Shown here in pieces: positions 13,067 to 27,102 of a DNA stretch of 51,953 bases (the first letter of the stretch is position 1; each line of letters opens with the position of its first letter). Position numbers and translations under genes: made by a program. The notes beneath the pieces are model-generated. The model saw nothing but the letters and a program-made list of their open reading frames with translations. It was not told the DNA's origin and did not search any database. The DNA comes from a virus, in IMG/VR virus record IMGVR_UViG_3300036670_000017, positions 1-51,953 of that record, one strand, 5' to 3'.

Positions 13067-13068
13067 AA

Positions 13069-13365
13069 TCAGTCGGCTCTGTCGTAGTGGCGACTGCCCG
13101 TGACGGCCTCGACGGCGCTAGAGCTCCCAAAACCTTCACCAACAAGTTTGGCTGCTTCTTTTAGCTTGGCTGGGCTGGAGGCTGCGCCGACTTTGCCGCC
13201 TGCGTCCTTAATGGCTTCCATGTACAGTTTACCGCCAGTCACAACAGTCGGCGCTGCTGGCTTGCCAAAAAAGGCGTAAGAGGGACGGGATGCACGGATT
13301 CCAGACGTATCCATCTTTGGATTTTCGGAATACACGGTGCTAGATTTTGTGATCTTAGTAGCCAT
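13069..13365 (-). CDS. Small protein between large terminase and portal
   Basis: A 98-residue protein, start chosen at the ATG (13365) that follows a strong GGAGG site rather than a further upstream in-frame codon. It is Ser/Ala/Lys-rich with short motifs SRPSYAFFGKP and KLKEAAKLVGEG, and shows no membrane segment. It fills the usual terminase-portal gap in this phage type and probably helps head assembly, but no family is recognised. Confidence 0.65.
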   Translation of the reverse strand: MATKITKSSTVYSENPKMDTSGIRASRPSYAFFGKPAAPTVVTGGKLYMEAIKDAGGKVGAASSPAKLKEAAKLVGEGFGSSSAVEAVTGSRHYDRAD

Positions 13366-13397
13366 ACGGCCTCCACAGTTGGGGTGTACCTCGCTAG

Positions 13398-13425
13398 ATT
13401 CTACACCCACAACCCCTTTTGTCCA
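13398..13425 (-). promoter_or_regulatory. Possible sigma70-type promoter upstream of the 98-residue gene and portal
   Basis: On the minus strand, TGGACA (13425-13420) and TAGAAT (13403-13398) are 16 bases apart, each matching five of six consensus positions. It lies in the 63-base gap after the large terminase gene. It could raise portal expression independently of the terminase transcript. The match could still be chance. Confidence 0.45.
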
Positions 13426-13428
13426 ACT

Positions 13429-14871
13429 TTATATCCAGCCGTTCATGCTAGCTTCCTCAACAACATGTGCCTTGCGCTTGGAAAACTTCCCGCCTTGTTG
13501 CGCATCGGCGTGCAGGGCTAGGTACTGCATAGCGTCAGCGATGTGCGACGCGTCGTTCTTCTCGGGCTTGTCTTCCAGCTCGCCGTTGGTCTTTAGCTTA
13601 TAGCGGTACTGGCCACGAAACGCGTTAATGAGCGGTCTGCAGGACGGGTCTACCAGAAAGCCAGCGCGGGTATCAACCTGCCTGTTGAGGAACTGCTCCA
13701 CCGCTGTAATACGCGCAATGATGCTGTTGGTGTATGCCGGTTGCGCTTGGAGGCCTTCTTGGTCTAAGATGTCATACACGGTTTTCTCGTCTGTCTGCGA
13801 ACGTGCGGTGCCAGCCGGGTCCCCGATAACTAGGATGGGCGCGCCCGGAAATGTCATCGACAGCTCGGGCTTCAGTATCGTGCGCAAGAAGCGCAGCAGC
13901 CCCATACCGTCTGCCGTTAGTGAGCGGTATATCAGCAGCCTACCCAGCGCGTCTATCTGCCCGACTACTGCCGACGGGTTCAGGCCGAAGTCCATGCCGA
14001 TAAGCACAGGCCGTAGGCCGTTTAGTATGGGTATTAGCGGCTTCTTGGCGACGTGGAAGTCCGCGTCAAAGCTACGGAACACGGGCTGTCCGGCAAGTGA
14101 CTTGCCGAACTTCGAGTGGATGTAGACGTCGACGTAGTCCTGCGTCTTGCCTTTGGCCAAGTTGTCGTAGTAGTTGCTGGGGAGAAGGTGAATCCAGTCC
14201 GCCTCTGGGCTCATACCCGACGGCTGAATCGTTACGTGGCAGTTATCTGGCGGGTCAATCAACAGCTTTTCCCAGAACGTGTCCATGTCTGGCGGGTTGC
14301 TCATCCCCCACAAGTGGCTGTTGGGTTTGCCGTCGTCAGTCACGCAGCCCTGTATGGGGTTGCCCTTTGCGTCATTACCCCACCCGGGCTTATGCGGCAC
14401 CATCATACCGTCAGGATAACGTCCCAGACGACCTTGGAGCGCCTCAAACACGTCCTTGTTAATCTCTCGAAACTCGTCAAGCACGGCAAAACTGGCCTGC
14501 AAAGACAACAGTCGGCGCACGTCGTTGGAGTCGTCCAAACCTCGAAACAATATCTCGCACTCTACGTCGTCTAGCTTCAGGAAGAACTTGTACTCGGTCT
14601 TGAGGAACGAGCCTGCCATACCATCCGGGAACCACTTGAGCACGTCGGGGATGCTCGTGTCTCGCAGCTGCTCGCGTGTGTTACGAACCCACACACAGCG
14701 AGAACGCCTGACACCATCCTTACACGGCGCCATGCGCTTAGCGTGGTACAGAATCTTAACGATACCGGCTGTCGTCTTGGTGGAGCCTACTGGTCCACAT
14801 ACCAGAGACAAGAAGTCTTCAGCCAAGAAAAACGGCACGAGAGTTTCGACCGGTGCGTATTGTGTGCTCAT
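13429..14871 (-). CDS. terL: Terminase large subunit
   Basis: A 480-residue DNA-packaging motor protein. The N-terminal ATPase has a Walker A variant GPVGSTKT (residues 26-33) and Walker B AVLDE (129-133). The C-terminal nuclease domain has an RNase H-like set of acidic residues: D294 in GMDFGLNPS, D351 in GDPAG and D446 in HIADAMQY. These cut the concatemer, and the ATPase pumps DNA through the portal. It overlaps the small-subunit gene by 4 bases (ATGA) and is followed by the portal-side genes, confirming the packaging cluster. Confidence 0.95.
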   Translation of the reverse strand: MSTQYAPVETLVPFFLAEDFLSLVCGPVGSTKTTAGIVKILYHAKRMAPCKDGVRRSRCVWVRNTREQLRDTSIPDVLKWFPDGMAGSFLKTEYKFFLKLDDVECEILFRGLDDSNDVRRLLSLQASFAVLDEFREINKDVFEALQGRLGRYPDGMMVPHKPGWGNDAKGNPIQGCVTDDGKPNSHLWGMSNPPDMDTFWEKLLIDPPDNCHVTIQPSGMSPEADWIHLLPSNYYDNLAKGKTQDYVDVYIHSKFGKSLAGQPVFRSFDADFHVAKKPLIPILNGLRPVLIGMDFGLNPSAVVGQIDALGRLLIYRSLTADGMGLLRFLRTILKPELSMTFPGAPILVIGDPAGTARSQTDEKTVYDILDQEGLQAQPAYTNSIIARITAVEQFLNRQVDTRAGFLVDPSCRPLINAFRGQYRYKLKTNGELEDKPEKNDASHIADAMQYLALHADAQQGGKFSKRKAHVVEEASMNGWI

Positions 14872-15425
14872 AGGTGGTCTTCCCCAGCGTACTGGTAGTC
14901 CTCTGGCTCATCTAAAAAGATATTGCTCAGAGCTTTCTTCTTTGCGCTGGGTAGCGTGATCGTGGGTACGTCTACAACATCTGCCTTGGCTATGTGCATG
15001 CCTTTGGCGGTTGTCGGCGCGGAACCGGGTATGTTGATGGTGATGCTGTACCCTGCACCAGTCTGTGTCTCCACAGTCTTGCGCGGCTCTAGGTCGCCCC
15101 ACTTGACCAAGTTCTCGACGATCTTAGCCCGCACTGCTGCAGGTATGTCGACATCTTTAGCCATCTGGTAGCTGTCTTTGAGCAGGTCTTCAGCAAGTAG
15201 TCGACACTTCGCGGCAAACGAAAAGCCGGAGTCGGTCAGCTCATTGACGTACGTCGTCACATACCCTGTGAACGTGGGGTTGGTTTTTATGGCGTCGTAT
15301 TCTTGCTGGGATATACCCTCAGCAGCTAGCACTTCATGCACCGGGGCATTGGCCCCGACCTGATTTCTTGCGACAGCTAAAGCTAAATCCCTAAGAAATA
15401 CGTCCGCGCTAATGGAGCGGTTCAT
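14868..15425 (-). CDS. terS: Terminase small subunit (probable)
   Basis: A 185-residue soluble protein directly upstream of, and overlapping, the large-subunit gene, as expected for the DNA-recognition subunit. The N-terminal region contains FLRDLALAVARNQVGANAPVHEVLAAEGISQQEYDAI (residues 10-46, listed here in part), which looks like a helix-turn-helix. A helical central region and a disordered tail follow. I chose the ATG at 15425; a TTG nine bases upstream is also in frame. Neither has a clear ribosome site, and the predicted promoter (15433-15460) would start RNA at about the ATG, so the mRNA may be leaderless. Confidence 0.75.
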   Translation of the reverse strand: MNRSISADVFLRDLALAVARNQVGANAPVHEVLAAEGISQQEYDAIKTNPTFTGYVTTYVNELTDSGFSFAAKCRLLAEDLLKDSYQMAKDVDIPAAVRAKIVENLVKWGDLEPRKTVETQTGAGYSITINIPGSAPTTAKGMHIAKADVVDVPTITLPSAKKKALSNIFLDEPEDYQYAGEDHL

Positions 15426-15432
15426 GGCTGCC

Positions 15433-15460
15433 AATGTACCACATGTTCGTGGTGTGTCAA
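15433..15460 (-). promoter_or_regulatory. Candidate late promoter for the terminase genes
   Basis: On the minus strand, a perfect TTGACA (15460-15455) is followed 16 bases later by TACATT (15438-15433), four of six matches. The transcript would begin at or within a base or two of the ATG at 15425. It is the only good -35 box upstream of the late genes in this gap. Confidence 0.5.
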
Positions 15461-15608
15461 TGGGGGCGTGGCTGGATAAACAATTTATGTGGCTGGGATG
15501 TTGTGGAAAAGATAGACTTGTAAAAATTAGGGGTCGCGTTACGCGGAACAGATCATATACCCCGGGGGGTACCCCCTATGGACGGGTGGAGGGGGTGGGG
15601 GTACCACC

Positions 15609-15661
15609 AACTACTGTCATGATGTCCGCGCCTCGCGACCGCGCCGCTGAACTACTGTCAT
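15609..15661 (+). repeat. Iterons, two copies of AACTACTGTCAT
   Basis: AACTACTGTCATG at 15609-15621 and AACTACTGTCAT at 15650-15661, 41 bases apart. The same 13-mer occurs four more times at 16504-16594 on the other side of the 213-residue gene. Flanking of one gene by the same iterons suggests that its product, or a host protein, binds them to control replication or transcription. Confidence 0.85.
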
Positions 15662-15670
15662 AAACTCCAG

Positions 15671-15686
15671 TAATTCCACGGGATTA
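15671..15686. promoter_or_regulatory. 16-bp palindrome, variant copy (TAATTCCACGGGATTA)
   Basis: First copy of the dispersed element and the only one with an arm change (C to T at position 5). The change would leave a G-U pair in an RNA stem but breaks perfect DNA symmetry. It lies about 37 bases upstream of the -10 box at 15724, unlike most other copies, which follow genes or promoters. Confidence 0.8.
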
Positions 15687-15699
15687 CGATAATATTATG

Positions 15700-15729
15700 T
15701 TGCACACGTGGCGCGTTTGGCGTTATAAT
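15700..15729 (+). promoter_or_regulatory. Candidate early promoter for the 213-residue gene
   Basis: A perfect TATAAT at 15724-15729 with a weak -35 (TTGCAC, 15700-15705) 18 bases upstream. Transcription would start near 15736, in front of a structured leader and the gene at 15805. The perfect -10 and position in the divergent control region favour it; the poor -35 suggests that it may need an activator. Confidence 0.6.
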
Positions 15730-15734
15730 AACTC

Positions 15735-15765
15735 ATGCCAACGAAAAGAGAACCTTTGTTGGCAT
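15735..15765 (+). promoter_or_regulatory. Leader hairpin upstream of the 213-residue gene
   Basis: ATGCCAAC (15735-15742) is complementary to GTTGGCAT (15758-15765), with further pairing possible inside (AAAG with CTTT). It would form at the very 5' end of the early transcript. A 4-bp GGCG/CGCC hairpin follows. It may stabilise the mRNA or bind a regulator; there is no U-tract right after it, so it is not a terminator. Confidence 0.6.
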
Positions 15766-15804
15766 GCGGCGCTTTCGCCAATACTTGTTTAAGGAAAATT
15801 TATC

Positions 15805-16446
15805 ATGACATCCGTTATCAACGCTAAAGTCACGCCCGCTGCTGCGGTCAAAGTCACGCCCGTTTTGCCAGCGGTGGCACGCGCCATAAACAGTGCAGTG
15901 ACCGCGAGCGCGTCTATGTTGTCCAAGACGCGCGAAGCTGCGCGCATGGCCAGCGAACAATTAGACGCCACGCTACCCTTGCGCGAGCGCATCGGCGCTA
16001 TCATGAGCGCGTACAGCTCAGAATTGTCTAAAGACCATAACGTCAAGGCTATATTCAGTGACACGTTGACCCTGTTGGCATGCGGACAAACTGAAGTTGT
16101 CGTTACCGTAGTAGGCAAAGAGGGCAAGATGGAAACCAGCACAACCGCAGCGCAAGCCGTAGACATGAGCAAGCACAACTTAAAAGCTGCTGCGCGTCAA
16201 GTTCGCGAAGCCCATGACATCGGGCGCACGGTCAAACCTCGCGAAGCCAAACCCGCCAGCGAAGCCAAACCAAAAGCGCAAAGCGCGCCTGACATGTTAT
16301 CCGTTGACGCGTTTTCTGAGTGGCTTGACATGTTGCCAGAATATTTAGGCGATAGCGTATTTCACCCGCGCATCGTGGCGGCGCTTATTGGCAAAGGCTA
16401 TACCCTCAACAAAGCCCTCAAGGGTCGCGCCATAACTGGAGTCTAA
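15805..16446 (+). CDS. First early protein, unknown function, flanked by iterons
   Basis: A 213-residue soluble protein with an alanine/threonine-rich N-terminus, a helical centre (about residues 40-85), a Lys/Pro/Ala/Glu-rich linker of short repeats (REAKPASEAKPKA, about 147-160) and a compact C-terminal domain (about 166-213). No catalytic or known DNA-binding motif is visible. It has its own promoter and a strong terminator, so it is a single-gene unit, and iterons lie on both sides. By analogy with iteron-bound initiators or repressors, it is the best candidate to bind them, but that is only context. The ribosome site is AAGGAAA. Confidence 0.7.
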   Translation: MTSVINAKVTPAAAVKVTPVLPAVARAINSAVTASASMLSKTREAARMASEQLDATLPLRERIGAIMSAYSSELSKDHNVKAIFSDTLTLLACGQTEVVVTVVGKEGKMETSTTAAQAVDMSKHNLKAAARQVREAHDIGRTVKPREAKPASEAKPKAQSAPDMLSVDAFSEWLDMLPEYLGDSVFHPRIVAALIGKGYTLNKALKGRAITGV

Positions 16447-16451
16447 ACCCA

Positions 16452-16478
16452 AGACCGCCCGCAAGGGCGGTCTCTTTT
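16452..16478 (+). terminator. Rho-independent terminator after the first early gene
   Basis: AGACCGCCC (16452-16460) pairs with GGGCGGTCT (16465-16473) around a GCAA tetraloop, followed by CTTTT. The perfect GC-rich 9-bp stem and position 5 bases after the stop codon make this a confident intrinsic terminator. It isolates the first gene from the origin-like region. Confidence 0.95.
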
Positions 16479-16479
16479 C

Positions 16480-16496
16480 GCTCAAAATTTTTGAGC
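16480..16496. repeat. 17-base inverted repeat after the terminator
   Basis: GCTCAAAA and TTTTGAGC flank a single T, giving a perfect inverted repeat directly behind the terminator. It would form an AT-rich cruciform or a protein-binding site, and marks the left edge of the iteron array. Confidence 0.6.
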
Positions 16497-16503
16497 CTAA
16501 CCA

Positions 16504-16594
16504 AACTACTGTCATGCTGCGCAGGCACTAACTACTGTCATGGTTGGGACGCATGAACTACTGTCATGGTTGGGACGCATGAACTACTGTCATG
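16504..16594 (+). repeat. Iteron array, four copies of AACTACTGTCATG at exact 26-bp period
   Basis: The 13-mer starts at 16504, 16530, 16556 and 16582, exactly 26 bases apart. Between the second, third and fourth copies the spacer is also identical (GTTGGGACGCATG), so the repeat unit is 26 bp there. The next element, the 16-bp palindrome, starts 25 bases after the last copy. Same-face spacing of about 2.5 helical turns and the adjacent AT-rich DNA resemble iteron origins. Confidence 0.9.
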
Positions 16595-16606
16595 GTGTCG
16601 AGGCAC

Positions 16607-16622
16607 TAATCCCACGGGATTA
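16607..16622. promoter_or_regulatory. 16-bp palindrome, copy 2 (AC centre)
   Basis: TAATCCCACGGGATTA directly after the iteron array, in DNA with no coding gene. This shows that the element is not simply a by-product of stop codons. Confidence 0.85.
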
Positions 16623-17162
16623 CGCAGCCCACTTGATGCATGAGGCCACGTCGAAAACAAGTTCGATACATGAGCCCGATGCATGCGCTGGATACTCCCC
16701 CCAGTATGCGAAAGCGGCAGTGAGAAGCGTGCAAGAAAAATTTAGACGGGAAAAAAAATAGACAGCGTAACCCGCATGAAACCTAGGTTCTTGTTTTCTG
16801 TCTATGGATTTTCAGCAACTATTTTCCGAAAACGTGCACTGACCAACATACCCACAACTTATAAAACTGTCTAATCCTTTAAAATCAACGATGTATCGGG
16901 GGTGGGGGGTATGCAAAAAGCAACTGACTCTTATATATATATTTTTAATAGTTAAATAGATAGATAGATGGCTATTTTAGAACTCGGATTTCTCAAAATC
17001 CCCCAATCTCAAAATAGTTCAGACCCCAGATTTCCGAACTTCTCTCTTCTCCAAAAAACAATCTATTTGTCTATTCCTAGCAAAATCAACGGTCTATTTT
17101 TTCAATTCTGTCTATTTTGCCGCCAGCCCCGCTACCAAGCCATCTATCCACCCTCACTCGAC
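16623..17162. other. AT-rich gene-free region, candidate replication origin
   Basis: About 540 bases without a convincing gene. It contains an AT tract with TATATATATA (near 16932), TAGATAGATAGATGG, several short TGTCTAT repeats (near 16798, 17068 and 17108), two AAAATCAACG repeats (about 16880 and 17081) and two TCTCAAAAT repeats (about 16991 and 17007). It adjoins the 26-bp iteron array. An iteron array plus an easily melted AT-rich stretch is the classic arrangement of a replication origin, so this is the best origin candidate in the genome. I see no perfect DnaA box. Confidence 0.6.
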
Positions 17163-17191
17163 TTGACACGTGGCCAATATAATGCTACAAT
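17163..17191 (+). promoter_or_regulatory. Sigma70 promoter for the second early operon
   Basis: A perfect TTGACA (17163-17168), a 17-base spacer and TACAAT (17186-17191). The 16-bp palindrome begins at 17244, with exactly 52 bases between it and the -10 box. The same distance is found at the 19941 promoter. It would transcribe the genes from 17303 onwards. Confidence 0.85.
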
Positions 17192-17243
17192 GTACTCATA
17201 CATCGAGAAACCCTTAGCGGCCACCTCGGTGTGTGCAGGTGCT

Positions 17244-17259
17244 TAATCCCACGGGATTA
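17244..17259. promoter_or_regulatory. 16-bp palindrome, copy 3 (AC centre), downstream of promoter
   Basis: TAATCCCACGGGATTA in the 5' leader of the second early operon, about 45 bases after the expected start of RNA. It is followed by two overlapping copies of ACTTGTTCACT (17271-17281 and 17279-17289) and the ribosome site of the 17303 gene. Confidence 0.85.
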
Positions 17260-17302
17260 ACTGCCTACTAACTTGTTCACTTGTTCACTTAGGAAAATCA
17301 CT

Positions 17303-17929
17303 ATGACTATAGCAAACCACGCTGTTGCGCAGGGCTTCGTTCGCGGTCGCACCGCCAAAGGCTCTAACTTCAAGAGCGTAATCGCCAGCTCCACGGCCTC
17401 GCTTTCCAGCAGCGCATACGACACGTTCGAGGCGTGCCGCACCATATACAGCTACAGCACCGCAATTGCGCACATTGTGCTAAACAAAGTGTCAGACTGC
17501 ACCGAGCTGTGGCTAAGCCCCGAGGACTACAGCATGACAACACGCCAACACAAAGCGCACATCAGGTCTGCGTGGCGCGAGCTGTGCCACAAGCAAGGGC
17601 GAGACCCTGCAAACTACTTGTACCCCACACTTAACCGCAACCGCCCGCTCGACCTGATACCACCAGCTATAAAGCTACAGGGCGTGAACCACCCGCGCAT
17701 CAGGGAGAACACACGGCGTTGTGTCGTGAAGTCGTACCTGCACACCCTTAACGAGAACATAACCATAGCGACGCGAGACCTGCCCGAAGATAAGTGGGGC
17801 ACACCTGCCCGCGCGCAGTGGGGCAATGCCGTGGAGCTACGCACCAGTCTTATGAGCTGGCTCGAGTTGCCAGTGGACGATATGCGCGCTACCGTGACGG
17901 GGTATCTGGCACTTGAGGCCACGGCCTAA
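17303..17929 (+). CDS. Early phage protein with YS-TTxxH motif (DUF8033-like)
   Basis: A 208-residue protein, start chosen at the ATG following AGGAAAA; an upstream in-frame TTG lies within the leader repeats and is unlikely. Residues about 47-92 contain TIYSYSTAIAH and then EDYSMTTRQHKAHIR, a pattern seen in many small phage proteins grouped around DUF8033, whose function is unknown. The rest is helical and basic, with an arginine-rich centre. It is the first gene behind the 17163 promoter. Its stop codon is the first three bases of a 16-bp palindrome. Confidence 0.65.
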   Translation: MTIANHAVAQGFVRGRTAKGSNFKSVIASSTASLSSSAYDTFEACRTIYSYSTAIAHIVLNKVSDCTELWLSPEDYSMTTRQHKAHIRSAWRELCHKQGRDPANYLYPTLNRNRPLDLIPPAIKLQGVNHPRIRENTRRCVVKSYLHTLNENITIATRDLPEDKWGTPARAQWGNAVELRTSLMSWLELPVDDMRATVTGYLALEATA

Positions 17930-17942
17930 TCCCGTGGGATTA
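17927..17942. promoter_or_regulatory. 16-bp palindrome, copy 4 (GT centre), overlapping a stop codon
   Basis: TAATCCCGTGGGATTA. The first TAA is the stop codon of the 17303 gene. It is the only copy with GT in the middle, which is the same site read from the other strand. Confidence 0.85.
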
Positions 17943-17968
17943 ACCACACAACACACTGGAGAGATGAC

Positions 17969-18106
17969 ATGACACAGCACAAACTAACAACACGCCAAGA
18001 CCAGCAAGACAGCGACAACAAGCTGTTCGCACTGCTGACCTACGTCGTACTAATAGTATCCGGCGTTGTTGCGCTGGCAACATACTTCGACGTGTTAACC
18101 AAATAA
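17969..18106 (+). CDS. Small single-pass membrane protein
   Basis: A 45-residue protein beginning MTQHKLTTRQDQQDSDNK, with a polar N-terminus and one transmembrane helix (about residues 19-38, rich in Leu, Val and Ala). A GGAGAG ribosome site lies 6 bases upstream. It starts 26 bases after the palindrome, and the AAGGAG for the next gene follows its stop. Early phage membrane miniproteins of this type often alter host functions, but nothing specific can be assigned. Confidence 0.65.
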   Translation: MTQHKLTTRQDQQDSDNKLFALLTYVVLIVSGVVALATYFDVLTK

Positions 18107-18117
18107 GGAGAAACGAC

Positions 18118-18297
18118 ATGACACAAGTAGTAGTTAGCAAAGAACTATTGGAGCGGGTAATCAACTACCTGCAGGACGCCGAAGAAACCCACTACGAGGA
18201 GACCATAGACACCTACGGCGTTGACTCGGACGAAGTCAACTGGCACATATACGAGACCTGCCGCATCCTACGGTGCGAGATGGGAGAAATGGCATGA
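18118..18297 (+). CDS. Small acidic early protein
   Basis: A 59-residue acidic, probably helical protein (MTQVVVSKELLERVINYLQD..., then EETHYEETIDTYG), preceded by AAGGAG. It overlaps the next gene by 4 bases (ATGA). No family is recognised with certainty. The VSKELLERVINYLQDAE opening is common among tiny phage proteins of unknown role. Confidence 0.65.
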   Translation: MTQVVVSKELLERVINYLQDAEETHYEETIDTYGVDSDEVNWHIYETCRILRCEMGEMA

Positions 18298-18461
18298 AGA
18301 AGTACACAGCCACGCTTGTCGTTACACACAAGCAAAACGTAGAAGTAGAAGTAGCCGACGACTGCACCCCAAAACAGTTACTCGCTCAGATAGGGGGCGA
18401 GTTCGACCTGTTCGCCTCAGAAGCAACCATAGCCATCGAAGATGTAGAGGAGTTGACATGA
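18294..18461 (+). CDS. Small early protein, unknown function
   Basis: A 55-residue protein (MKKYTATLVVTHKQNVEVEVADD...) with alternating hydrophobic residues that suggest beta strands and an acidic C-terminus. Start at the ATG that overlaps the upstream stop, with GGGAGAA as ribosome site. It overlaps the next gene by 4 bases. It is similar in style to its downstream neighbour, so both may share a small alpha/beta fold. Confidence 0.65.
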   Translation: MKKYTATLVVTHKQNVEVEVADDCTPKQLLAQIGGEFDLFASEATIAIEDVEELT

Positions 18462-18631
18462 AAACCTACGCAGTAGAACTTAAGAGAACATCGTACGTCA
18501 CGCTAACCGTAGAGGCCGACACCCATGGAGAAGCCGAAGATTTGGCATGGGAGGAACTAGAGTCAGGCGAATCCTATGGCATTTCAGACGACGCCGACTG
18601 GGAAGTAAACGCTATTGACATAACCGACTAA
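18458..18631 (+). CDS. Small acidic early protein, unknown function
   Basis: A 57-residue protein starting MKTYAVELKRTSYVTLTVEAD, followed by an acidic helix (GEAEDLAWEELESG) and an acidic end. A beta-strand pair followed by a helix is common in phage and plasmid miniproteins of unknown role. It overlaps the upstream gene (ATGA) and has GAGGAG as ribosome site. Confidence 0.65.
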   Translation: MKTYAVELKRTSYVTLTVEADTHGEAEDLAWEELESGESYGISDDADWEVNAIDITD

Positions 18632-18648
18632 CCGACGGGAGAACAAGT

Positions 18649-18864
18649 ATGACTGAGACCAACCAACGATACATAGAGGCGCAGCTCTTTGGGGCGGCCC
18701 CGCTGCCAGTGGACGAGATGAAAACCCTGCGCATCAAGCTCAGAACCGAGAAAGGCGAGACCAACTGGCTCAGCGTCAGCGCCACTGCGTACCGCGAGAT
18801 AGAGTCCAAGCTGATTCTGGACGCGCTGGCTAAAGACGGGGAGGCTAAGCATGACCGCGACTAA
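18649..18864 (+). CDS. Small early protein, unknown function
   Basis: A 71-residue soluble protein (MTETNQRYIEAQLFGAAPLP...) with a basic KTLRIKLRTEKGETNWLSVS central strand region and a C-terminal helix. A GGGAGAA ribosome site precedes it. The stop codon forms the start of a 16-bp palindrome, and the next gene begins 14 bases before this stop. Confidence 0.6.
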   Translation: MTETNQRYIEAQLFGAAPLPVDEMKTLRIKLRTEKGETNWLSVSATAYREIESKLILDALAKDGEAKHDRD

Positions 18865-19072
18865 TCCCATGGGATTACCGCAAGGCGTAGCCGAGCTAGA
18901 GCTTGCAGCGACGGCGCAAATGGCTAAGATAGCAGACACGTTAGCCCTGCTGCAGCAGGTGGACGTGAGCAGCGGCGTGGTGGAGGACTTGTGCGACATG
19001 TACGCCCACGTCGCCGTTGTCAGAGCGCGCTGTAGTTCGACACTATATATAAGGAGTAAACGAGATGTATGA
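18851..19072 (+). CDS. Small helical early protein whose start spans a palindrome
   Basis: A 73-residue, mostly helical protein. The ATG at 18851 follows a GGGGAGG site, so translation runs through the palindrome at 18862-18877, which here encodes TNPMGL. A second in-frame ATG lies in the centre of that palindrome. It overlaps both neighbours (14 and 8 bases). No function is recognised. Confidence 0.6.
   Translation: MTATNPMGLPQGVAELELAATAQMAKIADTLALLQQVDVSSGVVEDLCDMYAHVAVVRARCSSTLYIRSKRDV
18862..18877. promoter_or_regulatory. 16-bp palindrome, copy 5 (AT centre), inside overlapping genes
   Basis: TAATCCCATGGGATTA, a fully symmetric copy. Its TAA stops the 18649 gene while the whole site is read through in another frame by the 18851 gene. 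Retention of the perfect sequence inside coding DNA argues for selection on the site itself. Confidence 0.85.
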
Positions 19073-19664
19073 CGACACCATCAAAACGTACGACGTGGCA
19101 GGCGCGGACGGCTTGCAGTACCGCGTGCGCGTATCACCTGACGACGACAGGCATCCGCTAGAGGACGCAGGTGACGACGCACTACCCATCATGGACACCG
19201 ACACGGACTGGGACACAAGCGACGCAGAAGAGTTCGAGGAGCACTGCACCGAGTACGAGCCCTCACTGGAGGAGGTCGCACGCTTGCGCATGCTGGAGCC
19301 AGTCGGGCGGTGGGCACGACACGCGCCGCGTCAGTATGTCGACGTAATGCGCACAGCGCACGCACTAGAGCGCGAGGGTGTGGAGCCTGCCTACGCGCTG
19401 GAGATTGCACGGGGCATGACCAAGTGGCTACAGGGCTGGTACAACGACGACTGGCACTACGTCGGCATCACTGTGACTGCACTGGACGAGCGTGGGGACG
19501 AGACAGACGACGAGCAAAGCCTGTGCGGCATCGAGTGGGACGAGTCCGCCGACGACCACGAGAAGGACGTCGCCGAATACGTCACTGACTTAGTGTACGA
19601 GTGCAGCCACGCAAGGCGCAGGGCTGCACACCCAAACCAGATGGAACTGAACTTTTACGCCTAA
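19065..19664 (+). CDS. Acidic early protein with YVGI-SLCGIE motif
   Basis: A 199-residue, strongly acidic protein. The first 70 residues are rich in Asp and Glu. The central part is helical (RQYVDVMRTAHALEREG). The C-terminal part contains WHYVGITVTALDERG followed by SLCGIEWDE, a pair of strands seen in several unassigned phage proteins. High acidity could indicate DNA mimicry or binding to a basic partner, but that is a guess. It is preceded by AAGGAG, and its stop codon starts the next palindrome. Confidence 0.65.
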   Translation: MYDDTIKTYDVAGADGLQYRVRVSPDDDRHPLEDAGDDALPIMDTDTDWDTSDAEEFEEHCTEYEPSLEEVARLRMLEPVGRWARHAPRQYVDVMRTAHALEREGVEPAYALEIARGMTKWLQGWYNDDWHYVGITVTALDERGDETDDEQSLCGIEWDESADDHEKDVAEYVTDLVYECSHARRRAAHPNQMELNFYA

Positions 19665-19677
19665 TCCCATGGGATTA
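19662..19677. promoter_or_regulatory. 16-bp palindrome, copy 6 (AT centre), overlapping a stop codon
   Basis: TAATCCCATGGGATTA. TAA terminates the 19065 gene, and the ribosome site (AGGAG) of the next gene lies 6 bases after the palindrome. Confidence 0.85.
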
Positions 19678-19695
19678 ACACACAGGAGAAACAAC

Positions 19696-19929
19696 ATGCT
19701 TCCAGCAGAACACAACCGCCGTACGCCCTACAACACAGGCAAAGTCCTGATTGGGCGCGACTACACCCCCGTAACGCGCCCAGCGCCAGCGTCTCAGGAT
19801 ATGGAGAACCTGCAGCTCGCACTGCTAAACAAGCCTAAGCTGCGCACCATAGAGCGCATCGCCTTGGGATTACTGTCATGCCTCGCGCTGGTCGTGCTCG
19901 CGCTCGACTTGTTCGTGTGGCGGCCATAA
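19696..19929 (+). CDS. Small C-terminally anchored membrane protein
   Basis: A 77-residue protein with a polar, Pro/Arg-rich N-terminal 45 residues and one C-terminal transmembrane helix (about residues 53-74). The start was placed at the ATG after AGGAG. It is the last gene before the promoter at 19941. Its function is unknown; a tail-anchored early membrane protein could act at the host inner membrane. Confidence 0.6.
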   Translation: MLPAEHNRRTPYNTGKVLIGRDYTPVTRPAPASQDMENLQLALLNKPKLRTIERIALGLLSCLALVVLALDLFVWRP

Positions 19930-19940
19930 TAGCCAAGAGC

Positions 19941-19969
19941 TTGACAGTGTAAGCCATTTAGGTTATAAT
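19941..19969 (+). promoter_or_regulatory. Consensus sigma70 promoter for the third early operon
   Basis: Perfect TTGACA (19941-19946), a 17-base spacer and perfect TATAAT (19964-19969). This is the strongest promoter seen in the window. A GTAGCG/CGCTAC inverted repeat lies in the leader, and the 16-bp palindrome starts 52 bases after the -10 box. It would drive the 20055 gene and the ATPase/VWA module. Confidence 0.92.
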
Positions 19970-20021
19970 AATACCTGTAGCGACACAAAACGCCGCTACG
20001 TTACTCGTTCACTTCAATACT

Positions 20022-20037
20022 TAATCCCACGGGATTA
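20022..20037. promoter_or_regulatory. 16-bp palindrome, copy 7 (AC centre), downstream of promoter
   Basis: TAATCCCACGGGATTA in the leader of the third early operon, preceded by ACTCGTTCACT (20003-20013) and followed by the AAGGAAA site of the 20055 gene. Its spacing from the -10 box is identical to that of the 17244 copy. Confidence 0.85.
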
Positions 20038-20054
20038 GCAACCAAGGAAATCAT

Positions 20055-20936
20055 ATGTCTATCAAAGACCACGCATTGCTTGTGTCACTCACTGTGTCCA
20101 AGCCTCAGATGACTGCCAAAGACGGCAAGGCGACTCGCGACGCAGAAAACGCCAACAACGCCTCAGGCGCTGGGCACTACCGCAAAGACTTGTACCCCAA
20201 GACGCTAGTTGCACCCATCATGGCTGTAGAGTCCGCAACCCGCGCCTACATCGACAGCCAGACCTACATGTGGGTTCGCGGCGAGTACTTACTGCCGACC
20301 ACGCGCTTTATGGTGTTCGCAGAGCGCATCGGCAAGTTCGAGGTCGAGTTTAGCCAAGCCGTCACAGCGTTTCTTAACAACTGGGCGCAGGTGATGCAGA
20401 TGGCACAGAGTCACCAAGGTGACTTGTTCGACGCCTCAGCGTACCCCGACCTTGAAGACCTCAAGAGCGACTTCCGCTTCCGTGTGCACTACCGCCCAGT
20501 CACTGACCAGCACGACTTCCGTGTCGAGTTGCAAGAGGCTGAGCTTGACTTGCTGCGTACGCAGGTCGAGGCGGCCACCAAAGACAGCATGGAGTCCATG
20601 TTGCGCCATCCGCTCGAGCGACTGCGCGACGTAGTAACCCGTCTAAACGAGGTCGCCAAGAAGCAAGACCGCACTGTTGTCAACAAACGCACGGGCGTCG
20701 CTGACATCAAGGCGCCGATATTTCGTGACTCGGTGGTCGACAACATCGTAGAGGAGATTGGGTTGTTGCACGACTTCGCGGCCATTCTGCCAGACAACAT
20801 ACTGGCCATGGCTCAAGATGTCGCGGCTGCGACACCAAACGCAAACCATTTACGTGATGACCCCACCGCGCGCACTGCTGTCGGCATCAAGACTGACGCG
20901 TTGCTCGAATCCATTAACAGCATGCTGGAGAACTAA
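20055..20936 (+). CDS. DUF3150-like protein of the ATPase/VWA module
   Basis: A 293-residue soluble protein starting MSIKDHALLVSLTVSKPQ. The body is mostly helical, with a coiled-coil-prone region at about residues 150-205. It resembles the DUF3150-type proteins that precede MoxR-like ATPase and VWA genes in phages and plasmids, and here the same three genes occur in this order (20055, 21618, 22919). It is probably a partner or substrate of that ATPase system. It is the first gene behind the strongest promoter, so it should be abundant. The resemblance is by pattern and context. Confidence 0.6.
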   Translation: MSIKDHALLVSLTVSKPQMTAKDGKATRDAENANNASGAGHYRKDLYPKTLVAPIMAVESATRAYIDSQTYMWVRGEYLLPTTRFMVFAERIGKFEVEFSQAVTAFLNNWAQVMQMAQSHQGDLFDASAYPDLEDLKSDFRFRVHYRPVTDQHDFRVELQEAELDLLRTQVEAATKDSMESMLRHPLERLRDVVTRLNEVAKKQDRTVVNKRTGVADIKAPIFRDSVVDNIVEEIGLLHDFAAILPDNILAMAQDVAAATPNANHLRDDPTARTAVGIKTDALLESINSMLEN

Positions 20937-20938
20937 CC

Positions 20939-21163
20939 ATGGCCAACACACTCGCAGTACTCAGCTTTAACTCGGTAGAGTACTTGCTCGACGCCGATGA
21001 CGCATGCGCCGCATTTGCTCTGATTAGCAAGGGCCGCCGCGTCGATTATTCGTATGGCAAAGAGGGATACGTGTACAAGGAGTCGACGCGGCATGACACT
21101 CTTACAGTCCGCATGTTTTCTGAGGTCGAGCTGGGTAAGCTAAACCTCGAAGCCCCAGAGTAA
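20939..21163 (+). CDS. Small early protein, unknown function
   Basis: A 74-residue protein (MANTLAVLSFNSVEYLLDADD...) two bases downstream of the DUF3150-like gene, so probably translated by coupling. It has a predicted beta-alpha-beta character and a Tyr-rich centre (VDYSYGKEGYVYKE). Its stop codon begins a palindrome. No family is recognised. Confidence 0.6.
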   Translation: MANTLAVLSFNSVEYLLDADDACAAFALISKGRRVDYSYGKEGYVYKESTRHDTLTVRMFSEVELGKLNLEAPE

Positions 21164-21176
21164 TCCCACGGGATTA
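21161..21176. promoter_or_regulatory. 16-bp palindrome, copy 8 (AC centre), overlapping a stop codon
   Basis: TAATCCCACGGGATTA. The following leader (ACACACCACTAACTAAGGAAC) is almost the same as that after the next copy at 21562, showing that the whole palindrome-leader unit has been duplicated. Confidence 0.85.
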
Positions 21177-21201
21177 ACACACCACTAACTAAGGAACTAC
21201 C

Positions 21202-21564
21202 ATGTCAATTATCGGAACCACTGTGTCACTTAAAAAAGCAACCATTAAAAAGTACGCCCGACACCTCGCCGCGCTAGGCTGCACGTTCAAGGTCATCGAA
21301 GATGATGGCACTGAGCACGGCACACTCGTCGCGACTGCGCCAACCAAAGGTCGCGCCGATGTTATCGGTCGCATTGACTACAAGACAGCCCTCGCTAAAC
21401 TAGCAGTGGGCGAGCTTATAGAGCTACCCATACCGGAAGGCCTCACAGGCGTAACGGTGCAGTCGACAGTCTCAGCGTGCGCAAACGCCATGTACGGCGC
21501 TGGCGCAATCACGTCGTCCGTAAACAGAAAGACAAACCGCCTCGAAGTGCTACGCCTTCAGTAA
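21202..21564 (+). CDS. Early protein of unknown function between DUF3150-like and ATPase genes
   Basis: A 120-residue basic protein. The N-terminal half (TIKKYARHLAALGCTFKVIEDDG) looks alpha/beta; the C-terminal half has a GVTVQSTVSACANAMYGAG segment and ends LEVLRLQ, a pattern present in several unassigned phage proteins. It is preceded by AAGGAAC and ends in a palindrome. A nucleic-acid-binding role would fit the charge but is not shown. Confidence 0.6.
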   Translation: MSIIGTTVSLKKATIKKYARHLAALGCTFKVIEDDGTEHGTLVATAPTKGRADVIGRIDYKTALAKLAVGELIELPIPEGLTGVTVQSTVSACANAMYGAGAITSSVNRKTNRLEVLRLQ

Positions 21565-21577
21565 TCCCACGGGATTA
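21562..21577. promoter_or_regulatory. 16-bp palindrome, copy 9 (AC centre), overlapping a stop codon
   Basis: TAATCCCACGGGATTA, followed by a leader matching that after copy 8 but carrying an inserted ACTTGTTCACT (21593-21603) before the ribosome site of the ATPase gene. Confidence 0.85.
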
Positions 21578-21617
21578 ACACACCACTAACTAACTTGTTC
21601 ACTACTAAGGAATCATC

Positions 21618-22625
21618 ATGCGTATCAAAAACATCACCCCAGTATTAGCCAAGCGCTACCTCAACGACAGCGTGCGTGCCCGCACAGTGTTCTTGCGTGG
21701 CCCATCAGGCATCGGCAAATCACAGGTCGTCTTTCAAGCCAGCGACTTGCTCCGCGAGCACGTCAAAGACTGGCAGGGCGTCGTCGACTTGCGCCTTGCG
21801 CAGATGGAGCCCACCGACTTGCGCGGCGTGCCATACATCGAGAAAGGTCGCACTGTGTGGGGTCGTCCAGACTTCCTGCCCCAGACCGGCGCCGGTATTT
21901 TGTTCTTAGACGAGCTTACATCAGCCCCGCCGTCAGTACAGGCAGCTGCGTACCAGCTGTGCCTGACGCCAGAAGACTTCGGCATCCCATCGACGTGGAT
22001 GGTGGTAGCCGCAGGTAACCGCAAGACAGACCGAGGCGTGACGTTTAACCTAGCTGCGCCACTGCAGAACCGCATGTGTGATGTCGAGGTGTCCACATCG
22101 CTCGACGACTTCACAGACCACGCCATCACCAAGGGTGTGCGTCCAGAGGTGCTGTCGTTCTTGCGTGACCGCCCCGACTTGCTGCACAAGTTTGAGCCTG
22201 CTGGTGAGATTCGTGCGTTCCCTAGCCCACGCTCGTGGTTTGCTGTATCCGACTTGCTGGCTTGTGACATGCCCAGCGCCGAGCGGCTGGAGCAGGTGTG
22301 CGGTGACATTGGCGAGGAAGCTGGCAAAGTGTTCGAGACGCACTTGCGAGTGTGGGAGACCATGCCACGCATAGACGACATACTGGCAGGCAAAGACTTG
22401 CCAGTCCCCAAGGAGCTAAACGTGCGGTACTGTGTCGCTATGGGCTTGGCCGCACGCATTGATTCTAAGAACTTTGACAACGCGTGGAAGTTCTTATCTC
22501 AGATGCCCGGCGACATTCAGACGCTAGTCATGCGACTGGCTTACAAGCGAGACCGAAAAATCGCAGTGAGCCCAGCGTTCGCGAAGTGGTGCACGGCTAA
22601 CGCCGATGCGTTCCGACGTGATTAA
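21618..22625 (+). CDS. MoxR-like AAA+ ATPase
   Basis: A 335-residue AAA+ ATPase. Walker A GPSGIGKS is at residues 28-35 and Walker B ILFLDEL at 94-100. A sensor-type MVVAAGN motif follows, then the helical lid region. Enzymes of the MoxR/RavA group use ATP to remodel partners and pair with VWA proteins to insert metals or activate complexes. A VWA protein is encoded two genes downstream, so they probably form such a pair. The ATG has an AAGGAA site. The exact substrate in the infected cell is unknown. Confidence 0.88.
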   Translation: MRIKNITPVLAKRYLNDSVRARTVFLRGPSGIGKSQVVFQASDLLREHVKDWQGVVDLRLAQMEPTDLRGVPYIEKGRTVWGRPDFLPQTGAGILFLDELTSAPPSVQAAAYQLCLTPEDFGIPSTWMVVAAGNRKTDRGVTFNLAAPLQNRMCDVEVSTSLDDFTDHAITKGVRPEVLSFLRDRPDLLHKFEPAGEIRAFPSPRSWFAVSDLLACDMPSAERLEQVCGDIGEEAGKVFETHLRVWETMPRIDDILAGKDLPVPKELNVRYCVAMGLAARIDSKNFDNAWKFLSQMPGDIQTLVMRLAYKRDRKIAVSPAFAKWCTANADAFRRD

Positions 22626-22881
22626 GGACTTGCACCCCGACTTGCGCGTGTCTAAGACGTCGAGCGGGTACGACATACGCCGCGTAGTGAAGCAACACAC
22701 CACAGCCAACCAGCTGTGGATGACAAACTTTGCAACAGTGCGGTACGGGCGCAGCGCTATGCACGACAGCGGGTCGGGGTGGGTACTTAGTGTCGGTGTG
22801 TTCGACGACATTACTATGCACGACACGCTTGACGCGGCGCTGCTGCACGCAGTTGCGCTATATAATTTACAGCACGGCTAA
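22606..22881 (+). CDS. Small protein between ATPase and VWA genes
   Basis: A 91-residue protein whose start overlaps the ATPase gene by 20 bases. It appears alpha/beta, with strands around WLMTNFATVRYG-like and WVLSVGVFDD stretches and a C-terminal helix. No ribosome site is strong, so it probably depends on coupling to the ATPase. Its stop begins a palindrome. The function is unknown. Confidence 0.55.
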   Translation: MRSDVIKDLHPDLRVSKTSSGYDIRRVVKQHTTANQLWMTNFATVRYGRSAMHDSGSGWVLSVGVFDDITMHDTLDAALLHAVALYNLQHG

Positions 22882-22894
22882 TCCCACGGGATTA
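22879..22894. promoter_or_regulatory. 16-bp palindrome, copy 10 (AC centre), overlapping a stop codon
   Basis: TAATCCCACGGGATTA. It is followed by ACTTGTTTACT (22898-22908) and the GGAG site of the VWA gene. A TATAAT at 22861-22866 lies just upstream but lacks a -35 box at a proper distance. Confidence 0.85.
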
Positions 22895-22918
22895 GCAACT
22901 TGTTTACTGGAGAATACG

Positions 22919-24082
22919 ATGACAACTTTAGAGAGCCGCCTAGATACTGCGTACAGCAAGCTAGGCCTACGCGAGCCGTTTATTGCGGCAGTCATGACCA
23001 AAGTTAAGCGCGAGGTCAGCGACAAGATACCCACGGCTGGAACCAACGGCACATGGGCGAAGTTCAACCCAACTTTCTGCGAGCCCTTGAGCGCAGAGCA
23101 GTTGTTTGGCCTCGTGCTCCACGAGTCCTGCCACGTCATACTTCAGCATATGTGGAGGCGGGATGGGCGCGACGCCAAGCTATGGAACATCGCCAACGAC
23201 GCCATCATCAACCGCTACATAGCCAACCGAGGGTACGTGTTGCCTGACGGCGGTGTAGACCTGCGCTGGGTCACAGAAGAGCACAGCTCAGACTACGTGT
23301 ACAACAAACTAAAGCAGCAGCAGCCGCAGCAGCAGCAGCAGCAGCAGGGTAACGGTAACGGTAACGGTGACGGTGACGGTGACGACGAGGGTACTGGTGA
23401 CGCAGGTGGCTTTGACGGCACCGGCGACTTGTACGAGCCAGACGGCGCTGTGAGCGAGGCGGACATGCAGGTGACCATCGCCGCCGCAGCGCAGATGGCG
23501 AAGGACTGCGGGCACGGCACATCGATGACTGCGCGCGTACTGGGTGCACTAGGTGTGCCCAACGTACCGTGGTCTGACGTGCTGCGCTCCATGCTCACCG
23601 ACAGCTCAGCAGCCGACTATTCGTACAGGCGACCATCGCGTCGGTTCATAGGACAAGGGTTGTACCTACCTTCACTGCGCACAGACGCACTAGGCGGGTT
23701 AGCCATTGGCTTTGACACGTCAGGCTCGGTCAGTCCCAGCGACTGCGACAAGATGGCCACAGAGATTCGTGCCATTGTGTCTGACTTGCGCCCAGCGTTT
23801 GTCGAGGTCATATACTGCGACTCTAGTGTGTCGTCAGTGGAGCGCTTTGAGCAAGACGACGACGTAGTGCTGCACCCCACTGGCGGTGGCGGCACTAGGT
23901 TCAAGCCGGTGTTTGACCACGTTGCGCAGTCAGATGACTTCTACGCAGGCATGGTGTTCTTTACAGACATGGAGGGCAACCTCGCAGAGTGCGAGGAGCC
24001 GGAGTTTCCAGTGATATGGGCTAACGTCGGATACGCCGACTACGCGCCGCCATTTGGCACAGTGACAAAAGTAACTTTATAG
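22919..24082 (+). CDS. VWA-domain protein with HExxH metallopeptidase-like motif (DUF2201-like)
   Basis: A 387-residue protein. The N-terminal domain has H68-E69-S-C-H72 (an HExxH zinc motif) within LHESCHVILQHMWRR. A low-complexity linker of poly-Gln and Gly/Asn/Asp repeats occupies about residues 132-165, and the C-terminal VWA-like domain carries a MIDAS motif D266-T-S268-G-S270. This matches the DUF2201 arrangement (putative metallopeptidase plus VWA). With the MoxR-like ATPase upstream it forms an ATPase-VWA pair resembling RavA-ViaA. I place the start at the ATG after GGAG; an upstream in-frame extension crosses another gene. Whether it is an active protease is unknown. Confidence 0.85.
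   Translation: MTTLESRLDTAYSKLGLREPFIAAVMTKVKREVSDKIPTAGTNGTWAKFNPTFCEPLSAEQLFGLVLHESCHVILQHMWRRDGRDAKLWNIANDAIINRYIANRGYVLPDGGVDLRWVTEEHSSDYVYNKLKQQQPQQQQQQQGNGNGNGDGDGDDEGTGDAGGFDGTGDLYEPDGAVSEADMQVTIAAAAQMAKDCGHGTSMTARVLGALGVPNVPWSDVLRSMLTDSSAADYSYRRPSRRFIGQGLYLPSLRTDALGGLAIGFDTSGSVSPSDCDKMATEIRAIVSDLRPAFVEVIYCDSSVSSVERFEQDDDVVLHPTGGGGTRFKPVFDHVAQSDDFYAGMVFFTDMEGNLAECEEPEFPVIWANVGYADYAPPFGTVTKVTL
23314..23390 (+). repeat. Codon repeats (CAG and GGTAAC/GGTGAC) in the VWA gene
   Basis: A run of mostly CAG codons (poly-Gln) is followed by repeated GGTAAC and GGTGAC hexamers (Gly-Asn, Gly-Asp). It encodes the flexible linker between the HExxH and VWA domains. Such runs change length by slippage, always in multiples of three here, so linker length may vary between relatives. 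Confidence 0.85.
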
Positions 24083-24090
24083 AGACCGAC

Positions 24091-24372
24091 ATGAGCAACA
24101 CATTTGACAAAGACCTTTACAACCGCATGGCCCGCATCGAGAGCAAACTGGTGCGCGGCTTCGAAGAGCTGGGCGTAAACATCGCCACAGCGCCTGACTG
24201 GCTCACAGTGGACGACACATCACGCGTGGTGTACATATCGTCAATGGGCCGGTCCCTCATGGTCATCATGAGCGACATGGCGCGGCGCGGCGCATCGCAG
24301 TACGGCAACGAGTACACGCTGGTGCACCAAGGTGACGAGGTGGGCACACTCGTTTTCGCCAAAGCACGATAG
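24091..24372 (+). CDS. Small early protein, unknown function
   Basis: A 93-residue soluble protein starting MSNTFDKDLYNRMARIESKLV. A charged N-terminal helix is followed by a beta-rich part (RVVYISSMGRSLMVIMSD, EYTLVHQGDEVGTLVF). It starts 9 bases after the VWA stop and belongs to the same transcript. No family is recognised. Confidence 0.6.
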   Translation: MSNTFDKDLYNRMARIESKLVRGFEELGVNIATAPDWLTVDDTSRVVYISSMGRSLMVIMSDMARRGASQYGNEYTLVHQGDEVGTLVFAKAR

Positions 24373-24383
24373 GAAATACTATC

Positions 24384-24893
24384 ATGAGCAAGCTAATCGA
24401 CAAGATACAAGGCCTAGCCGTAGAAGATGACGGCTGCTGGGTTTGGCAAGGCGCCGTGCAAAGCAGCGGTGCGCCAGTCATGAAATTTAATGGCTCAGTA
24501 AGCACTGTGCGCCGACTTATCGTGCTGGCCAGAGGCCTTGCCTTACCTGCTAGCAAAGTAGCGACATACACGTGCCACAACAAGTTGTGTGTGCACCCAA
24601 ACCACACAGCAATGCGCGACAAAGGGGCCGTAATCAAGCGCGGGCACAAAGAGAAGGACGAAGGCCACCGGCTTGCGCTAAACCATAAGCGCGCGCTGTC
24701 AAAACGCAAGGGCGCCAAGCTAGACATGGACAAAGCACGCGAAATACGTGCGTCGAGTGAGAGCACAGCGGAACTGGCGCGGAAGTACGGCGTTACAAAG
24801 TACTGCGTGTGGCAAGTACGGCGCGGGGAGTCTTGGAAAGAGTACGGCGCGGCCAACCCATTCGCAGCGCTGGTCCAGTGCGCACACAAATAG
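24384..24893 (+). CDS. HNH endonuclease with C-terminal helix-turn-helix
   Basis: A 169-residue protein. CWVWQGA (residues 18-24) and T-C64-H65-N66-K-L-C69-V-H71-P-N73-H74 form the HNH (His-Me finger) nuclease core found in free-standing phage endonucleases. Residues about 117-150 (AREIRASSESTAELARKYGVTK, listed here in part) look like a helix-turn-helix that guides DNA binding. It has no palindrome in front. It may be a homing endonuclease that has moved into the early region, or a nuclease of host DNA. Confidence 0.8.
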   Translation: MSKLIDKIQGLAVEDDGCWVWQGAVQSSGAPVMKFNGSVSTVRRLIVLARGLALPASKVATYTCHNKLCVHPNHTAMRDKGAVIKRGHKEKDEGHRLALNHKRALSKRKGAKLDMDKAREIRASSESTAELARKYGVTKYCVWQVRRGESWKEYGAANPFAALVQCAHK

Positions 24894-24908
24894 CCCGACA
24901 GGCAACAT

Positions 24909-25394
24909 ATGAGAAAACGAAGCAAATACCGCCCCAAACACGTACTGCAGAACCCGTTGGAGTATGTGCGCGAGAACATGGCACCGATTGCCCAGCACGG
25001 GAGCTACTTGGTGACACTAAAGATACGCAACAGCGACGCGATGGTTAAGCTGTTGCGTGGTCAAGCTAGCGTGCCCGACATGAACACGTTGGTGGCGATG
25101 AGCAACATCACAGAGGCCCTATGCTTTATGAACTTCGGCAAGGAGCACGTAGACATCGCTGAGCGCGGACGGCACGCCATTATCGCGATTGTGGAGCGCG
25201 CTAAGACAACGAACCGATTTACGCCAACAGGGTTAGAGGTGCAAGCACTGAACGAGCTAATGGAGTTGCACGACGCCCAGATGGATGTGCTGACAGTGAA
25301 AGACATGGACGCAGCGATACATTACGCGAGGCGTGCGCAGAACCGACCCAATGTGGTCAGGCTGCCCGTCGTCAACGTAACCCCTGTAACTTAG
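24909..25394 (+). CDS. Conserved phage protein (MRKRSKYRPK type)
   Basis: A 161-residue, basic N-terminal, largely helical protein starting MRKRSKYRPKHVLQNPLEYV. Proteins with this opening occur in phages of beta- and gammaproteobacteria and have no known function. The helices around residues 40-75 and 85-130 contain many charged residues and no membrane segment. It sits between the HNH nuclease and the MazG-like enzyme in a continuous early transcript. Confidence 0.65.
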   Translation: MRKRSKYRPKHVLQNPLEYVRENMAPIAQHGSYLVTLKIRNSDAMVKLLRGQASVPDMNTLVAMSNITEALCFMNFGKEHVDIAERGRHAIIAIVERAKTTNRFTPTGLEVQALNELMELHDAQMDVLTVKDMDAAIHYARRAQNRPNVVRLPVVNVTPVT

Positions 25395-25402
25395 GAACCA
25401 AC

Positions 25403-25852: not shown

Positions 25853-25853
25853 C

Positions 25854-25869
25854 TAATCCCATGGGATTA
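25854..25869. promoter_or_regulatory. 16-bp palindrome, copy 11 (AT centre), last copy
   Basis: TAATCCCATGGGATTA begins one base after the stop codon of the MazG-like gene. It is the rightmost copy; I saw none beyond it in the replication genes or in the late genes. GAGGAG of the next gene follows. Confidence 0.85.
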
Positions 25870-25886
25870 GACCGAGGAGAAATGGA

Positions 25887-26989: not shown

Positions 26990-26990
26990 T

Positions 26991-27092: not shown

Positions 27093-27102
27093 AGGAGCAG
27101 AC

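Follow-up and report, generated by a model that had tools for sequence, protein, structure and literature searches.

Background

The ompA mRNA carries a 5'-terminal stem-loop which stabilises the message. In phage HK022, the putL element directly follows the promoter PL and comprises two stem-loops (PMC9378689). As for repeated DNA sites, the cluster A mycobacteriophages such as L5 and TipsytheTRex carry more than 20 repressor sites genome-wide, some at promoters and others in short intergenic spaces, and these stoperators are proposed to halt both initiation and elongation (PMC9283540). Repeated intergenic motifs were also suggested to be stoperators in the Nostoc cyanophages A-1 and N-1 (PMC4916379).

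The early region of the window, that is, the whole 51,953-nt stretch of phage DNA analysed here, recalls these systems in different respects. As with the cluster A stoperators, many copies of one site lie in promoter regions and short intergenic spaces; however, the cluster A sites are 13 bp long, asymmetric, bound by a monomer and oriented with transcription, while the site here is a near-perfect 16-bp palindrome with a partial orientation bias and thus not an asymmetric 13-bp site that follows transcription. Moreover, the cluster A phages are temperate and have a known repressor with HTH and Stoperator domains, whereas neither a repressor nor an integrase was found among the genes scanned here, which are part of the ORFs, many genes being without assignment. 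The motifs of the Nostoc cyanophages, likened to ours by their description, are likewise present in multiple copies between ORFs of freshwater phages with no obvious repressor (PMC4916379), but they are asymmetric. As at putL and putR of HK022, structured RNA is predicted just 3' of the early promoters, with two or more predicted stem-loops in most leaders of the promoter P1; there is however no sequence or Rfam similarity to put, and the leaders of the promoters P2 and P3 mostly have one stem. A hairpin at or near the 5' end whose stem sequence is free to vary would resemble that of ompA, but the leaders here have, in addition, a conserved purine-rich motif some 15 nt behind the -10 box. A literature search on the palindrome itself returned no relevant paper.

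Results

Spacing of the early promoters and the palindrome

The promoters of the window and a motif upstream of P1 are as follows.

15650-15661, + strand: motif AACTACTGTCAT 5' of P1, with a second copy at 15609-15621 (from the repeats of the window)
15701-15729, + strand: promoter P1 of the first early gene, TGCACA-N17-TATAAT (from the sequence scan and relatives)
17163-17191, + strand: promoter P2, TTGACA (17163-17168), N17, TACAAT (17186-17191)
19941-19969, + strand: promoter P3, TTGACA (19941-19946), N17, TATAAT (19964-19969)

P3 (12/12) and P2 (11/12) are the top two promoter-like sites in a scan of positions 12000-31000. In general the sigma-70 type hexamers of such promoter units are better than chance and conserved in relatives, and the spacer is 17 nt in 50 of 57 non-redundant units and 16 nt in the other 7. 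Most relatives examined also have ACTACT[AG]TCA 5' of P1, about 20-25 nt ahead of a palindrome.

The palindrome in question has 16 bp, TAATCCCRYGGGATTA, and is found after P2 and P3 as TAATCCCACGGGATTA, starting at 17244 and 20022, each time with 52 bases after the -10 box. The preliminary description took this equal spacing over unrelated sequence as a hint of a geometric requirement, and stated that variable spacing in related phages would refute it. Its coordinates for both promoters, both palindromes and both gaps are correct, and the two 52-nt leaders do differ in sequence, with 12 of 52 positions identical against a shuffled mean of 12.9. The exact requirement, however, does not hold, as gaps anywhere between 38 and 84 nt are found in relatives with the same promoters and palindrome.

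In fact, when the complete IMG/VR was scanned for TTGACA-N16-18-TANAAT followed by the palindrome TAATCCCNNGGGATTA, the gap was 36-66 nt in 67 stretches, 67-97 nt in 4 and 5-35 nt in none. Reduced to 57 non-redundant promoter-palindrome units, these gaps range over 38-84 nt with a median of 51 and quartiles of 45 and 55, and two units taken at random have an equal gap in 3.9% of pairs. Besides the window, none of 12 two-unit loci has equal gaps (for example 38/52, 39/61, 44/55 and 49/78), and among the 57 units there is neither helical phasing of the gap nor a 10.5-bp periodicity. That both units of the window agree, that 52 lies near the family median and that the near-identical relative L212 keeps 52 nt at its P2 unit are the points in favour of a functional distance of 52 nt; set against the family spread, the twelve unequal loci and the missing helical phase, they leave such a rule extremely improbable. 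Because relatives vary the distance from 38 to 84, the double occurrence of 52 in the window is a coincidence, of about 4% given the spread of the family. A looser placement rule is real, since the palindrome never falls within the first 35 nt after the -10 box, and this lower bound is probably due to a leader hairpin that fills the first 30-40 nt.

Copies of the palindrome at promoters and gene junctions

The palindrome is no chance repeat. With up to 3 mismatches allowed, the window has 11 copies between 15671 and 25869, where 0.22 are expected, and the arms are exact in 10 of them.

15671-15686, + strand: copy O1 5' of P1, with one mismatch (TAATTCCACGGGATTA) and a copy at the equivalent place in relatives
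16607-16622, + strand: copy of the palindrome
17244-17259, + strand: copy 52 nt after the -10 box of P2
17927-17942, + strand: copy that opens with the stop codon of ORF 17303-17929
18862-18877, + strand: copy that opens with the stop codon of ORF 18649-18864
19662-19677, + strand: copy that opens with the stop codon of ORF 19065-19664
20022-20037, + strand: copy 52 nt after the -10 box of P3, ahead of the DUF3150-like gene 20055-20936
21161-21176, + strand: copy that opens with the stop codon of ORF 20939-21163
21562-21577, + strand: copy that opens with the stop codon of ORF 21202-21564
22879-22894, + strand: copy that opens with the stop codon of ORF 22606-22881
25854-25869, + strand: copy 1 nt past the stop codon of ORF 25403-25852

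These copies are confined to the early block, at promoters and gene junctions. Only 2 of the 11 have a promoter of this kind 52 nt upstream; in 6 of them the TAA of the upstream ORF forms the first three bases, one more lies 1 nt past the stop, and the palindrome is therefore not generally preceded by a promoter at 52 nt.

The phages concerned form one uncultured, aquatic and mostly metagenomic clade, and the collections searched contain no isolate close to it. Their long genomes have 6-11 copies each, as counted in whole-read records with the early region. All the multi-copy records tested encode a relative of the DNA polymerase of the window, and records without such a polymerase have single matches; there are also polymerase-bearing fragments without the palindrome, including one that has 7.9 kb upstream of the polymerase. 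The palindrome was absent from the stretches read of Rhizobium phage RHph_TM3_14A and of the Pseudomonas phages Rollin and KPP25.

Within the clade the palindrome is nearly invariant across phages whose polymerases are 30-40% different. Its arms are exact in 302 copies and have one mismatch in 40, most of which are look-alikes in conserved coding sequence or copies 5' of P1, and no compensatory changes are seen in the arms of more than 300 copies. One-mismatch copies with G12 changed to A, considered as evidence of pairing, lie mostly in the DNA polymerase gene and are apparent coding coincidences. Of 204 oriented non-redundant sites, 203 have RY at the centre, with all four combinations present (AC 86, AT 71, GT 36 and GC 10, besides a single AA), and the flanks are Y at -1 in 261 of 298 and R at +1 in 264 of 298, the favoured bases being C at -1 and A at +1. 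Arms, centre and flanks are all fitted by half-sites YTAATCCCR read on both strands. Moreover, the flanks pair less often than expected (117 against 140.2, sd 5.0), and therefore the stem lacks the extension that would be open to an RNA hairpin.

Regarding the gene context, 90 of the 204 oriented sites have a TAA that serves as stop codon of the ORF before them, taken as the longest open frame and with 35 codons or more, and a ribosome-binding-site-like sequence with a start follows within 80 nt in 156; behind the stop-codon palindromes the ribosome-binding site is often about 15 nt downstream. A copy 5' of P1 is found in 36 non-redundant contexts; in 20 of these its arms have 1-3 mismatches, which mostly fall in the half farther from the promoter, and from its start to the start of the P1 -10 box there are 37-64 bp in the 27 leaders measured; this P1-upstream palindrome lies in DNA absent from the P1 transcript. 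All other copies are in leaders or gene junctions.

Structured leaders of the early promoters

The preliminary description named, as one example of what the spacing might serve, a fixed-length leader RNA with the palindrome as its hairpin near position 45. The leader does have a hairpin, which is a different one that starts close behind the -10 box, and all three promoters of the window have their own:

15734-15766, + strand: predicted hairpin 1 of the P1 leader (CATGCCAACGAA...TTTGTTGGCATG), with equivalents showing compensatory changes in relatives
15768-15779, + strand: predicted hairpin 2 of the P1 leader (GGCG-CTTT-CGCC)
17197-17235, + strand: predicted hairpin of the P2 leader (CATACATCGAG...CTCGGTGTGTG)
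19976-20000, + strand: predicted hairpin of the P3 leader (TGTAGCG...CGCTACG)

The P1 hairpin has 12 bp and begins 5 nt after the -10 box, and no palindrome lies downstream of P1 at the distance seen after P2 and P3; the hairpin thus goes with the promoter and not with the palindrome. In L212 one C of the 3' arm of the P2 hairpin is changed to T, by which the pair is kept as G-U.

Among the 57 leaders, the first 45 nt fold better than dinucleotide shuffles, with a mean z of -2.5 and z below -2 in 37. The first paired base is 6-10 nt past the -10 box in 41 of 57, compared with about 12 in shuffles, and uninterrupted stems of at least 6 pairs starting at 5-10 occur in 32 of 57 where 16.9 are expected (sd 3.1). 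A purine-rich motif (GAGAA, GGAAA, GGGGA and similar) is present in 41 of 57 leaders versus 9.9, and in most leaders having one it is placed 13-17 nt after the -10 box. Two leader groups show compensatory changes in support of pairing, with 5 cells changed on both sides and shuffles as high in 0/500 and 2/500, counts which are inflated by the kinship of the sequences; the alignments of two other groups, A2 and A3, were left out of the pair counts, and for the P1 leaders only hairpin 1 was included because MAFFT misaligns the second. At least two hairpins are predicted in 25 of 27 P1 leaders of relatives, and mostly one in P2 and P3 leaders. A tRNA search found nothing, and Rfam 15 gave 0 matches at gathering score in the window. 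With a transcription start at the usual distance of about 7 nt from the -10 box, the hairpin would stand at or near the 5' end of the RNA. The conserved purine motif beside a freely varying stem suggests specific recognition.

Early genes and candidate binding proteins

The gene behind P1 is the following.

15805-16446, + strand: first early gene, 213 aa, conserved, with no known family or fold

A strong terminator-like site lies 3' of it at 16452-16473. Its product has a good AlphaFold model (pLDDT 86), for which Foldseek returned no DNA-binding relative in PDB and BFVD, and it has no Pfam family; as the model has no recognisable DNA-binding fold, the product is a doubtful candidate for binding the palindrome. 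The neighbouring genes scanned include ATPase, nuclease-like, MazG-like, polymerase, helicase and primase-like proteins, and among the genes scanned neither a DNA-binding protein for the palindrome nor a partition gene was found.

As for the host, YTAATCCCRYGGGATTAR matched in only 24 stretches of bacterial genomes (257 Gb), with one site each, which rules out a known host regulon site for the 84,980 species scanned. Because so few stretches match, and each with a single site, a host factor is unlikely to be the binder of the palindrome.

Discussion

The exact spacing is thus a coincidence on top of a real conserved module, which is a variant of operator arrays and structured early leaders. 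We read the palindrome as a DNA operator bound symmetrically by one putative regulator that is probably phage-encoded, forming a stoperator-like array, and give this reading a probability of about 0.6. A DNA operator is preferred over an RNA hairpin because of the invariant arms, the RY centre, the Y/R flanks, the lack of stem extension and the copy upstream of P1. The copies 5-20 bp 5' of the P1 -35 box would let the regulator touch P1; those about 40-60 bp 3' of the P2 and P3 -10 boxes would place it in the path of the departing RNA polymerase, and those in the short gaps between early genes would let it obstruct a polymerase crossing the early operons. Such an array would correspond to the cluster A stoperators, except that its sites are palindromic. 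Control of early elongation, as the preliminary description proposed, is then a reasonable guess for the palindrome, though as a protein-bound DNA site and not as RNA. Independently of the operator, the transcripts of these promoters would carry a 5' structured RNA, namely a hairpin with the purine-rich motif, or two hairpins at P1, whose role is probably to shield the mRNA or to alter the polymerase, and the distance from promoter to operator would be limited only to lying beyond this hairpin. A role in lysogeny as for stoperators is unsupported, since the genes scanned include no integrase or repressor.

What weighs against the operator is that the genes scanned yielded no DNA-binding protein for it, and also the partial orientation of the sites, with AC at the centre 86 times and GT 36 times, and a preference for C at -1 and A at +1. 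This bias and the overlap with stop codons are left unexplained by a symmetric operator, and on their account we keep alive, as a rather doubtful alternative, the view that the palindrome acts as an RNA hairpin with a 6-bp stem and a CRYG tetraloop, bound by an RNA-binding protein or a nuclease in translational control or mRNA processing. The palindromes do lie in transcribed gaps, often beginning at a stop codon with the ribosome-binding site some 15 nt on, and the isolated hairpin folds in prediction; the precise stop-codon overlap could have a role in RNA or translation. Yet the stem alone is worth only about -4 to -5 kcal/mol, more than 300 copies are free of compensatory changes whereas the leader hairpins covary, the RY centre is symmetric in the DNA sense, the flanks pair below expectation and a copy is conserved 5' of P1. 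The use of multi-copy 16-bp palindromes as centromere or origin sites brings up replication, packaging or partition in place of gene control, which we consider improbable, as the copies of the window are only in the early block and tied to promoters and gene junctions, and a partition gene was not seen among the genes scanned.

Concerning the leaders, a possible though still unlikely account is that of an antitermination RNA like HK022 put, in which nascent hairpins would bind the polymerase for read-through of terminators, the palindromes being a separate matter. The structured RNA close behind the -10 box at all three promoters of the window, the two or more hairpins predicted in nearly all P1 leaders, the fixed place of the purine motif, the terminator-like site after the first early gene and the position and two stem-loops of putL itself (PMC9378689) are consistent with it; against it stand the lack of an Rfam match in the window, the mostly single hairpin of P2 and P3 leaders, and the length of putRNA, about 70 nt, with leaders here mostly shorter. 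Speculatively, and at longer odds than either of the RNA-based accounts, both elements may form a two-layer early switch, where a 5' RNA element, protein-free or dependent on a phage factor, would reprogram the polymerase at every early promoter, palindromic roadblock operators downstream and at gene junctions would oppose it, and the weaker P1-upstream copy would set the level of the regulator itself.

Under the operator reading, the control module conserved in this clade would consist of a 5' structured RNA at each strong early promoter together with a palindromic operator array. Its interest lies mainly in the near-invariance of the palindrome in a large uncultured clade, which would not be expected with immunity repressors, as these diversify. 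It thereby becomes testable whether a DNA-binding protein with many sites is put to another use, for example to time the early genes of a lytic phage.

Repeated elements of the window

Besides the 16-bp palindrome of the early region, which is read from the sequence as a putative DNA operator, a second repeated motif, AACTACTGTCATG, is observed in the window, and a 26-bp tandem array located 3' of the first early gene belongs to it. Moreover, upstream of the first early promoter (P1), ACTACTRTCA is present again in most of the relatives examined.

1-92 and 51862-51953, identical 92-bp repeats, one at each end
5351, 15605 and 16504-16600, AACTACTGTCATG motif (repeat analysis)
15701..15729 (+), P1
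15805..16446 (+), first early gene, 213 aa
16452-16473, strong terminator-like stem of 9 pairs, predicted, immediately 3' of the first early gene

The product of the first early gene is conserved and its AlphaFold model is confident; no solved structure was found to resemble this model, and its match in BFVD is one uncultured phage protein only.

Palindromes in other genomes

In the relative L165, whose polymerase is 69% identical to that of the window, neither palindrome nor half-site was found in the 7.9 kb upstream of the polymerase. The distant relative Rhizobium phage RHph_TM3_14A (L198) carries another repeated palindrome of 18 bp, GTTACC-N6-GGTAAC, in 12 copies (for example at 8501, 8807, 10922 and 14052), some of which lie within genes, the DNA polymerase among them. 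In the bacterial genome scan, six species of Pseudidiomarina (L247, L249, L251, L253, L258 and L263) gave one match to the window's palindrome per genome.

The identical repeats at the two window ends are of the kind expected when an assembly is circular or has terminal redundancy.
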